From Trichlorobacter ammonificans (GTDB taxonomy: Bacteria > Desulfobacterota > Desulfuromonadia > Geobacterales > Pseudopelobacteraceae), in assembly GCF_933509905.1 (NCBI RefSeq), contig NZ_OW150024.1:794001-858000 (forward strand): a stretch of 64,000 nt of DNA, given 5' to 3'. Positions within the stretch are counted from its first letter, which is position 1, and the number at the start of each line of letters is the position of its first letter. The notes beneath the pieces were generated by a model. That model saw nothing but the letters and a program-made list of their open reading frames with translations, was not told the DNA's origin and ran no database searches. Positions 5,925 to 9,522 of this stretch are shown one piece after another. A program made the translations under genes and the position numbers.

Positions 5925-7166
5925 ATGTACGCAGCCGACAACATCGGACGAAACACCATCGCCATGGTACTTGCCGGGGGCAAGGGGGAGCGGCTGATGC
6001 CGCTGACCCTGCGCCGGGCCAAACCCAGCGTCCCCTTTGGCGGCAAGTACAAGATCATCGACTTCGTCCTCTCCAACATGTTCAACTCCGGCATCAAGAA
6101 GGTCTACATCCTGACCCAGTACCGGGCCTATTCCCTCAACAAGCATATCCGCGAATCCTGGGGCACGTGGACCGGCCTCGGGGAATTCTACGTGGCCATC
6201 TCGCCGGAGACCCGCAGCGAGAGCGAGGAGTGGTTCAAGGGGACCGCGGACGCCATCCTCCAGTACCTGCGCTTCGTGGAATCCTCCAACGCCGATTACG
6301 TGGCCATTTTTGGCGGCGACCACATCTACAAGATGGATGTGACCCAGATGATCAACTACCACCGGATGAACCGGGCCGACATCACCATCGCCGCCCTGGA
6401 GGTGCCGGTGGAGGAGGCGGGCCGTTTCGGCGTCTTCTCCGTGGACGAGGATTCCCGGATCACCGCCTTTGCCGAGAAGCCGAAACATCCGGAAACCATT
6501 CCCGGTCGCGACACCTGCTTCGCCTCCATGGGCAATTACATCTTCCCCACCAAGAAGCTGATCGAGGTGCTGATGGAGGGGAAAAAGCTCCATGAGGATC
6601 TGGATTTCGGCAAGCACGTGATTCCGATGATGCTGGAGCGGGGGGACCGGGTCTTTGCCTACAACTTCAACGACAACGTCATCCCCGGCATGCGGGCGGA
6701 GGAACGGGGCTACTGGAAGGATGTGGGGACCATCGAGTCCTACTACGACGCCAACATGGACCTGATCAACGTCAGTCCGCAACTGAACCTCTACAACTAC
6801 AAGTGGCCCATCCTGACCAACCAGGGAAATCTGCCGCCGGCCAAGACCGTGTTCGACGACGAGGACCGCCGGGGGGTGAACATCGATTCCTACGTCTGCG
6901 CCGGCTGCATCACCAGCGGCAGCACGGTGCGCCGCTCCATCCTGGGGCCGCTCTGCAAGATCAACAGCTATAGCCTGGTGGAGGAGTCGATCCTCTTCGA
7001 GAGCGTCACCGTCGGCCGTCACTCGAAAATCAGGCGGGCCATCATCGACAAGGGGGTGGTGATCCCGGACGGCACGACCATCGGCTACGACCTGGAGGCG
7101 GATCGGCGTAGCGGCTATACGGTCACTGAATCGGGGATCGTGGTGGTGCCGCGCAAGGACCGCTAA
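5925..7166 (+). CDS. glgC: Glucose-1-phosphate adenylyltransferase (ADP-glucose pyrophosphorylase)
   Basis: Makes ADP-glucose from ATP and glucose-1-phosphate, the committed step of bacterial glycogen synthesis. 413 residues. The nucleotidyltransferase domain starts with MVLAGGKGERLMPLT (14-28) and AKPSVPFGGKYKIIDF, then IFGGDHIYKMD and the sugar-binding FAEKP. The C-terminal left-handed beta-helix shows the hexapeptide-type pattern from about 320 on (SYVCAGCITSGSTVRRSILGP). The start has TGGAGGAA at 5912-5918. No other glg gene is adjacent, and a strong terminator follows, so it looks like a single-gene unit with its own promoter. Confidence 0.97.
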   Translation: MYAADNIGRNTIAMVLAGGKGERLMPLTLRRAKPSVPFGGKYKIIDFVLSNMFNSGIKKVYILTQYRAYSLNKHIRESWGTWTGLGEFYVAISPETRSESEEWFKGTADAILQYLRFVESSNADYVAIFGGDHIYKMDVTQMINYHRMNRADITIAALEVPVEEAGRFGVFSVDEDSRITAFAEKPKHPETIPGRDTCFASMGNYIFPTKKLIEVLMEGKKLHEDLDFGKHVIPMMLERGDRVFAYNFNDNVIPGMRAEERGYWKDVGTIESYYDANMDLINVSPQLNLYNYKWPILTNQGNLPPAKTVFDDEDRRGVNIDSYVCAGCITSGSTVRRSILGPLCKINSYSLVEESILFESVTVGRHSKIRRAIIDKGVVIPDGTTIGYDLEADRRSGYTVTESGIVVVPRKDR

Positions 7167-7191
7167 GTTCCACTCTTACTCGCCAACACTG

Positions 7192-7228
7192 CAAACGCCT
7201 CCGGAACGGTCTGTCCCGGAGGCGTTTG
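7192..7228. terminator. Bidirectional terminator between glgC and scpB
   Basis: A perfect 13-bp inverted repeat, CAAACGCCTCCGG (7192-7204) and its complement (7216-7228), with an 11-base loop. It sits between the convergent ends of glgC (stop 7166) and scpB (stop 7260) and can serve both strands. Confidence 0.85.
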
Positions 7229-7259
7229 TACGTTTGTCGTCGGCGGTGTGGAGTCCGTA

Positions 7260-8039
7260 TCACTCCCCCCTGAAGACCGGCTTCCGCTTCTCCAGAAAGG
7301 CCCGTTTCCCTTCCAGGTAGTCGTCGCTGTCGTAGACCATCCGGCGCAGTCCCTGGATGTATTCGAAGGTTTCCGGCGCAAAGGGGTGAGAGTCGGCCAG
7401 GATGCGCAACTGCTGCTTCATGGCCCGGTTGGCCAGGGGAGCATTGTCGGCGATCCGGTTTGCCATGGCAAAGGTGAAGGATTCGAGTTCCTCCGTCGGC
7501 ACCAGATGGTTGAGGATGCCCACCTGCAGAGCCCGCTCGGCATCCACCGGCTGGGCGGTGTAGAACATCTCCCGGGCCACCCGTGGTCCCACGATGTTGA
7601 CGAAGTGCATGACGCCGGTGACGTTGTACGGCACACCGATCTTGGCGGGAGTGATGGCGAAGGAGGCGCTGGGCCCGCCGATGGCCAGATCGCAGACAAA
7701 CGCCAGGTCACAGGCCCCGCCCCAGACGCTTCCCTCGATCATGGCGATGACCGGCGCCGGTGAGCGGGCCACGCTGCGCAGCAGGCACTCCAAGGGATCG
7801 TTGTAGGCAAGAGGGTCCCGTCCCGGCTCGGGCAGTTCCCGGATGTTGAAGCCGGATGACCAGACCGTGGAACCGGCCGGCGCGCGGATGATAACCGCCC
7901 GAACCGTGCGTTGGGTAAACTGATCCATGGCATCGATCATCTCCTGCAGCATGGCGCGGGAGAGACTGTTGCGCGATTCGGGGTGATTGAGGGTGATGGT
8001 GGCGATCCGGTCGTCGCAGGTGGTGAGAATCAGTGACAT
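7260..8039 (-). CDS. scpB: Methylmalonyl-CoA decarboxylase-like crotonase (ScpB/YgfG type)
   Basis: A 259-residue crotonase-fold protein. It follows E. coli ScpB along its whole length rather than generic enoyl-CoA hydratases: ELPxxGRDPLxYxDPL, EGSVWGGA, GVPYN, VGILNH and the tail FLEKRKPxF. E. coli ScpB decarboxylates (R)-methylmalonyl-CoA to propionyl-CoA. The oxyanion-hole glycine (in VWGGA) and the tyrosine equivalent to Y140 (Y138 here) are kept, but the histidine equivalent to H66 is phenylalanine (F64, in SSGFNI). The gene stands alone between two untranslated regions. Its ribosome-binding site GAAAGGAG can pair with an upstream complement. Activity toward methylmalonyl-CoA is inferred; another acyl-CoA substrate is possible given the substitution. 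Confidence 0.85.
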   Translation of the reverse strand: MSLILTTCDDRIATITLNHPESRNSLSRAMLQEMIDAMDQFTQRTVRAVIIRAPAGSTVWSSGFNIRELPEPGRDPLAYNDPLECLLRSVARSPAPVIAMIEGSVWGGACDLAFVCDLAIGGPSASFAITPAKIGVPYNVTGVMHFVNIVGPRVAREMFYTAQPVDAERALQVGILNHLVPTEELESFTFAMANRIADNAPLANRAMKQQLRILADSHPFAPETFEYIQGLRRMVYDSDDYLEGKRAFLEKRKPVFRGE

Positions 8040-8045
8040 GGCGTA

Positions 8046-8163
8046 CTCCTTTCGGCAGGTCAGGCGCCTGGCCGGGGACGGACCATGGCGCCACGGCAGT
8101 GTGACGCGACCAGCACTTCTAACTGTAGCGCACTCTCTGCGTTCTGTCCGCTGCCGAAAGGAG
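8046..8163 (-). promoter_or_regulatory. Candidate long-range hairpin masking the scpB ribosome-binding site
   Basis: In the scpB transcript the segment CTGCCGAAAGGAG (complement of 8046-8058) contains the ribosome-binding site, 6 bases before the ATG. A perfect 13-base complement, CTCCTTTCGGCAG (complement of 8151-8163), lies 92 bases upstream. Pairing would hide the Shine-Dalgarno sequence. The enclosed region holds a small palindrome (CAGGCGCCTG at 8061-8070). I recognise no known riboswitch class in it. Confidence 0.45.
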
Positions 8164-8226
8164 ATTGTGGGGGGAGGGAGGCAGGGGAGCTGTTGGCATG
8201 GTGTTGCCGACAGTGTGTGAGGGCCG

Positions 8227-9522
8227 CTACCCCAGCCCCAGCCGTATCCCCACCGATTTTCCGTGGGCCTCCAGCCCTTCCAGCCCGGCGATGCGCACGA
8301 TGTCGTTCCCCAGCCGTTTCAGCCCCTGTTCGGAGAAGCTGATGATGGAGGACTTCTTGACAAAGTCGTCCACGGAAAGGGGGGAGAAGAAGCGGGCCGT
8401 GCCACCGGTGGGCAGCGTATGGTTCGGTCCGGCCAGGTAGTCGCCGGCCGCCTCCGGGGTCCAGTGGCCCATGAAAATCGCCCCGGCGTTGGTGATACGG
8501 GGCAGCAGGCCGAAGGGGTCGGCCACCGCCAGCTCAAGGTGCTCCGGCGCGATCCGGTTGGAGAAGGCGGCCGCTTCCTCCAGGGAGCCGGCCACGATGA
8601 TGGCCCCGAACTTCTCCCAGGAAGCACGGGCAATGGATTCGCGGGAAAGCTGGCCCAGCTGGTACTCCACCTCAGCCGCCACCGCTTCGCCGAAGCTCCG
8701 GTCGGTGGTGATCAGGATGGAAGAGGCCAGCTCGTCGTGCTCGGCCTGGGAGAGCAGGTCCGCCGCGATGTGGGCCGGAGTGCCGGTACCGTCGTTGATC
8801 ACCAGAATCTCGCTGGGACCGGCGATCATGTCGATCCCCACCTGGCCGAACACCAGCTGCTTGGCCGTGGCCACGTAGATGTTGCCCGGTCCGGTGACCT
8901 TGTCCACCCGGGGGATGGTGGCGGTGCCGCAGGCCAGGGCCGCCACCGCCTGGGCCCCCCCAACCCGGAAGATGCGGTGGACGCCGGAAAGGTGGGCCGC
9001 AGCCAGCACCGCCGGGTTGATTTCACCGCCGGGGGTGGGGCAGACCATGATGATCTCCCGCACGCCGGCAACCCGTGCCGGTACGGCATTCATGATCACG
9101 CTGCTGGGGTAGCTGGCCTTGCCGCCGGGGACGTAAATCCCCACCCGGTCCAGAGGGGTCACCTTCTGGCCCAGCAGAATGTCCGGTTCTTCGGTGGAGA
9201 GCCAGGTCTGGCTCTTCTGCTTTTCGTGGAAGCGGGCCACTCGCTCGACGGCCAGCTTCAGCGCCGCCAGGTCCTCAGCGGGAACCGCCGCCACGGCAGC
9301 CTCCACCTCCTGGCGCCCGATCTCCAGACCTGCCGCATCGGTCAGGTTAAGGCGGTCGAAGCGGTTGGTGTAGTCGATCAACGCCTCATCGCCCCTGGTG
9401 CGGACATCGGTGATGATGCCCCGCACCGTTTCCAGAACCTGGGCCGAGGTCTCCTCGCTGCGGTTCAGGATGGCGCTAAACTGCCGGTCAAAATCGGTAT
9501 CGGTAATATCGAGAAACAGCAC
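8227..9522 (-). CDS. hisD: Histidinol dehydrogenase
   Basis: Zinc enzyme catalysing the last two steps of histidine synthesis (L-histidinol to L-histidine with two NAD+). 431 residues, the usual length, GTG start with GGGAG 8-9 bases upstream. Family motifs seen: VPGGKASYPSSVIMNAVPARVAGV, TGPGNIYVATAKQLVFG, IDMIAGPSEILV, the metal/catalytic QAEHDE, and AGPNHTLPTGGTARF near the C-terminus. It follows hisG by 12 bp, with murA upstream, a known murA-hisG-hisD neighbourhood. The rest of the his pathway is not in the window. Confidence 0.97.
   Translation of the reverse strand: MLFLDITDTDFDRQFSAILNRSEETSAQVLETVRGIITDVRTRGDEALIDYTNRFDRLNLTDAAGLEIGRQEVEAAVAAVPAEDLAALKLAVERVARFHEKQKSQTWLSTEEPDILLGQKVTPLDRVGIYVPGGKASYPSSVIMNAVPARVAGVREIIMVCPTPGGEINPAVLAAAHLSGVHRIFRVGGAQAVAALACGTATIPRVDKVTGPGNIYVATAKQLVFGQVGIDMIAGPSEILVINDGTGTPAHIAADLLSQAEHDELASSILITTDRSFGEAVAAEVEYQLGQLSRESIARASWEKFGAIIVAGSLEEAAAFSNRIAPEHLELAVADPFGLLPRITNAGAIFMGHWTPEAAGDYLAGPNHTLPTGGTARFFSPLSVDDFVKKSSIISFSEQGLKRLGNDIVRIAGLEGLEAHGKSVGIRLGLG

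Follow-up and report, generated by a model that had tools for sequence, protein, structure and literature searches.

The scpB gene of Trichlorobacter ammonificans lies on the minus strand of the 64,000-nucleotide stretch of DNA analysed here (the window), with hisD as its upstream neighbour on the same strand. A gap of 187 nt separates the hisD stop codon from the scpB ATG, at position 8039. The name scpB, given in an earlier note on this DNA, is right, since the product scores 383.4 bits against the NCBIfam model NF008506, methylmalonyl-CoA decarboxylase (cut-off 257). The enzyme forms propionyl-CoA, and the closest scpB relative from a named organism is that of Trichlorobacter thiogenes (75% identity). 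For Geobacter bemidjiensis, a proposed role of the enzyme is to turn (S)-methylmalonyl-CoA back into propionyl-CoA in fumarate growth (PMC2996986, excerpt); the role described in that excerpt offers no hint of a ligand for the scpB leader. The features of the locus, in the direction of transcription, are the following:

8227..9522, minus strand: hisD, histidinol dehydrogenase, same-strand neighbour upstream of scpB
8151..8163, minus strand: 5′ helix arm with the RNA sequence CUCCUUUCGGCAG, which can pair with the arm holding the Shine-Dalgarno
8122..8150, minus strand: weak sigma-70-like promoter candidate (CGGACA-17 nt-TACAGT, 8 of 12), immediately downstream of the 5′ arm
8059..8150, minus strand: 92-nt loop between the arms, with two modest predicted stems, little more structured than shuffles and holding no recognised sensing domain
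8060..8086, minus strand: possible 8-codon upstream frame, MVRPRPGA, without a Shine-Dalgarno of its own
8046..8058, minus strand: 3′ helix arm with the RNA sequence CUGCCGAAAGGAG, which holds the scpB Shine-Dalgarno
7260..8039, minus strand: scpB, methylmalonyl-CoA decarboxylase, 259 aa (NCBIfam NF008506)

Inside the gap, CTCCTTTCGGCAG (8163-8151) and CTGCCGAAAGGAG (8058-8046) are perfect 13-base complements with a spacing of 92 nt. The scpB Shine-Dalgarno, AAAGGAG, occupies 8052-8046 within the 3′ arm, its GGAG standing 6 nt from the ATG. This confirmed the complementarity described in the earlier note, including its coverage of the whole Shine-Dalgarno. The 13-mer has exactly two sites in the 3.06-Mb genome and, with one mismatch allowed, 6 sites in total versus 7 for a reversed control pattern; it therefore represents no repeat family. 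The MVRPRPGA frame stops two bases ahead of the Shine-Dalgarno arm, and a ribosome translating it would open the helix.

Rarity and predicted folding of the match

To estimate how often such a match arises by chance, shuffled sequences were used. After dinucleotide shuffling of the gap, a perfect inverted repeat of at least 13 bases was found in 2 of 1,500 sequences. When the Shine-Dalgarno zone was kept fixed and the part upstream of it shuffled, a match of 13 was never reached in 5,000 trials, one of 12 was reached once, and one of 9 in 15 (about 0.3%). If the tail of these shuffles is extrapolated with a factor of four per base, a 13-base match to the Shine-Dalgarno is expected at about 1e-5 per gene. 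We also compared scpB with the genes of its own genome. Among 231 genes roughly called by a crude open-frame caller in the window and 20 further stretches (464 kb of the 3.06 Mb), a set that takes in only genes with a Shine-Dalgarno of at least 4 bases, scpB is unique with its match of 13 bases, the next best being 8.

Over the whole window the picture is different: 11 of 60 shuffled windows carry some perfect repeat of at least 13 bases with a loop of 3-200 nt, and the real window carries four, of which three have short loops (3-11 nt). The statement of the earlier note that the match is unlikely by chance thus stands for the 187-nt gap and is much weaker over every gap read. The 13-bp match is a clear local outlier, yet it was picked out while reading a long sequence. 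That it arose by chance, or as a mutational by-product (template switching, for instance, can leave an inverted copy), and plays no regulatory role, is nearly as likely as the regulatory reading to which we come below. The count of repeats in shuffled windows speaks for such an origin. Against it stands the choice of partner, as the Shine-Dalgarno exactly would be hit at the low extrapolated rate per gene.

Folding of the region, which the earlier note had suggested, predicted the Shine-Dalgarno helix to be dominant whenever the RNA has both arms. For the 118-nt element the minimum energy is -60.2 kcal/mol (z -4.5; none of 200 shuffles equally stable), and the 211-nt region is also more stable than most shuffles (z -2.8; 2 of 200 equally stable). 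The 92-nt apical part alone reaches only z -1.6 with 500 shuffles and z -1.3 in a set where 20 of 200 were equally stable, so that the stability of the element comes from its arms. The ensemble energy is -82.0 kcal/mol with both arms, compared to -70.5 kcal/mol when the 3′ arm is held unpaired. The predicted probability that AAGGAG is unpaired is 0.005 for the whole gap, and likewise with 400 nt of hisD added. According to this model, RNA carrying both arms would hardly escape helix formation, which also weighs against a by-product without any role. Predicted burial is in itself common: scpB is one of 10 genes, among the 231, in which the Shine-Dalgarno has a probability of at most 0.01 of being unpaired.

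The earlier note took the arms for a translational switch in which the 92-nt apical part may be the sensing domain. We consider it highly improbable that the leader is a riboswitch or another ligand- or temperature-sensing leader. Only the geometry suggests it, namely a helix burying the Shine-Dalgarno and an apical part of sizeable length; the ability to hide the Shine-Dalgarno is shared with the translational riboswitches in Rfam. Unlike these, the scpB leader matches no Rfam family, shows no conserved sensing domain and has no relatives: the modest z values of the apical part (-1.3 to -1.6) argue against a sensor, and a search of 140 other genomes of the order, with at most five candidates scored per genome, gave no homologue. 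No Rfam family matched the leader at the gathering threshold, in agreement with the earlier note, which had recognised no known riboswitch class. At a permissive threshold five matches appeared, all of them sub-threshold and to eukaryotic microRNA or lncRNA families. As a common aptamer was sought (14 genomes of the genus, 140 of the order, Rfam at gathering threshold) and not found, we do not class the leader as a riboswitch. A literature search returned nothing on this scpB leader among the matches listed, and the riboswitches mentioned in the excerpt of PMC2996986 sit at other genes.

RNA thermometers such as ROSE and fourU hold the Shine-Dalgarno in a helix. The scpB Shine-Dalgarno is likewise placed; in contrast to these thermometers, its helix is a perfect 13 bp and is predicted to stay shut at 55-65 °C. 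The predicted probability of an unpaired Shine-Dalgarno rises only from 0.002 at 30 °C to 0.011 at 45 °C and 0.025 at 55 °C. This predicted failure to melt disfavours a thermometer, and with it temperature sensing in general.

The leader and its gene order in relatives

We then looked for the leader in other genomes. No DNA similar to it was detected in 56 other relatives, nor in 14 other genomes of the genus at E≤0.001; the best match below threshold in the genus search was a 26-nt stretch (E 0.0022, in G010) over 8211-8186, outside both arms. Across the searches of relatives, genus and order (in the order, at most five candidates scored per genome), the only sequence retrieved at E≤0.001 was that of the window's own genome.

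Leaders of scpB genes were also compared directly. For this, 90 of 111 loci were kept, leaving out those with less than 150 nt upstream, duplicates (identified from the first 300 bases of the coding sequence) and weak homologues (E above 1e-60). A blastn comparison of the gap with the 600 nt preceding each of the 89 other scpB genes detected nothing at E≤1, and neither arm was present in the 400 nt upstream of any of them. In the 72 leaders with a recognisable Shine-Dalgarno (the other 17 of the 89 were scored 0), the longest perfect match was 9 bases, in Citrifermentans bremense (L051), followed by 8 (L027). Since a match of this length is reached by about 0.3% of shuffles, this lone 9-base match is no signal. 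Conservation of the arms, on which the earlier note would have its switch judged, was therefore not borne out as far as the search reached, and the helix leader is represented by a single example in all genomes searched. As no relative examined has the match, it looks private and possibly neutral, rather than a new riboswitch; its absence from all relatives searched is also what a chance origin would give.

Four related scpB loci (L022, L027, L029 and L049) share a promoter-like stretch, TTGACG...TACTC(A/C), upstream of the gene, part of which could pair with the Shine-Dalgarno. A local Shine-Dalgarno hairpin in these four was considered and rejected, the consensus being weak (-7.1 kcal/mol) with two-sided change in 1 of 18 pairs.

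The adjacency of hisD and scpB was seen in this genome alone: 27 other loci, with flanks reaching up to 1.5 kb, had no hisD near scpB. Here scpB follows hisD and breaks the order of the his genes. In contrast, a hisC-like frame, recognised by eye from its translation, follows hisD in 10 of the 12 other genomes of the genus with a hisD match, the two remaining genomes (G009 and G003) having other genes at this place. After a second hisD piece in G012 (locus L141) come another small gene and a convergent glgC-like gene, in this order. The latter matches positions 6297-7165 of the window at 82% identity, and the hisD tail matches at 84%. L141 thus has the gene order of the window minus scpB and its leader, which indicates that the leader is new sequence and that scpB was either placed behind hisD in the present lineage or lost from the other. 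The gene order being a recent arrangement, the gap is young sequence, a point that again favours chance or a mutational by-product.

The position of the arms where the gene order changed also raises the possibility of a feature acting at the level of DNA: a 118-bp unit with 13-bp inverted ends could be a small mobile element with its terminal inverted repeats or, the arms lying 105 bp apart, a paired protein-binding site. We regard this as quite improbable. The unit is single copy in the genome, has no homologue in the 140 other genomes of the order (at most five candidates scored in each), and shows no visible target duplication at its ends; for a MITE-like element, several copies or homologues and a target duplication were looked for and not found. 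In addition, one of the arms must be a Shine-Dalgarno anyway.

A possible helix on read-through RNA and the comparison with T4 gene e

No intrinsic terminator was detected by our scan rule in 7000-9000, including between hisD and scpB, so read-through from hisD into scpB is possible. Downstream of scpB, the space between two convergent genes, which end at 7166 and 7260, holds a perfect inverted repeat (7192-7228) with arms of 13 bp and a loop of 11 nt; it is likely a terminator for both, though absent from the list given by the terminator scan.

A stricter promoter scan, at 9 of 12, detected no promoter in the gap. The candidate at 8150-8122, between the arms, where a transcription start would in the view of the earlier note speak against its switch, is the sole sigma-70-like site given by a looser scan, against a background of 0.11 such sites per shuffled region and 0.44 per 187 nt per strand over the window. 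Sigma-54 promoters were also considered and rejected, the best candidates scoring 7 versus a mean of 6.8 for the best in shuffled sequence. A start about 7 nt past the 8150-8122 candidate would leave an RNA without the 5′ arm and, if this promoter is real, the helix would act on read-through RNA only. For RNA starting between 8156 and 8086, within or after the 5′ arm, the predicted probability of an unpaired AAGGAG is 0.52-0.61. For RNA starting at about 8116, the Shine-Dalgarno reaches 0.53, and the predicted openness of the ATG is only 0.15, compared with 0.63 for the full leader; this makes free translation of such a short RNA less plausible.

The known case that the scpB leader most resembles is gene e (lysozyme) of phage T4. 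There, as in I-TevI, long transcripts bury the Shine-Dalgarno and those from internal late promoters leave it open; in gene e the long transcripts are early ones and the late-promoter transcripts, which lack the 5′ strand, are translated, the effect was measured, and such leaders recur in related phages (PMC3014915, excerpt). As in gene e, the strand of the scpB helix that covers the Shine-Dalgarno is the upstream, 5′ one, and it would occur only in long read-through RNA. Between the two arms there is a weak promoter candidate. Burial in the long RNA is predicted from folding here (probability unpaired 0.005). Unlike gene e, scpB is a chromosomal metabolic gene, its loop is 92 nt, its promoter candidate matches at only 8 of 12, its start codon is predicted to be less open in the short RNA, and no conserved leader was found. 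The two could work alike at most by analogy.

Taken to its full extent, this analogy would make the locus a chromosomal, single-species counterpart of gene e: the helix would silence read-through from the his operon, only RNA from a promoter between the arms would be translated, scpB would ignore the transcription of its neighbour, and fixation of the arms would have followed the placement of scpB behind hisD. We consider this complete scheme unlikely.

What we tentatively prefer is a simpler reading, that a lineage-specific long-range helix damps scpB translation from hisD read-through RNA and senses nothing. RNA would run from hisD into scpB, as the lack of a detected terminator permits. Its 13-base 5′ arm would then pair with the arm holding the scpB Shine-Dalgarno, as folding predicts, and this pairing may lower scpB translation. 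The block would be static, or set by where the RNA begins, with no ligand sensed. Such a helix would have arisen in this lineage, in which scpB sits behind hisD.

If the helix acts in this way, it would illustrate how RNA folding by itself, with no terminator, can insulate a gene from read-through once that gene has come to lie behind another operon. Should the helix be inactive, the locus is a caution that a striking 13-base match to a Shine-Dalgarno can be private to one genome.
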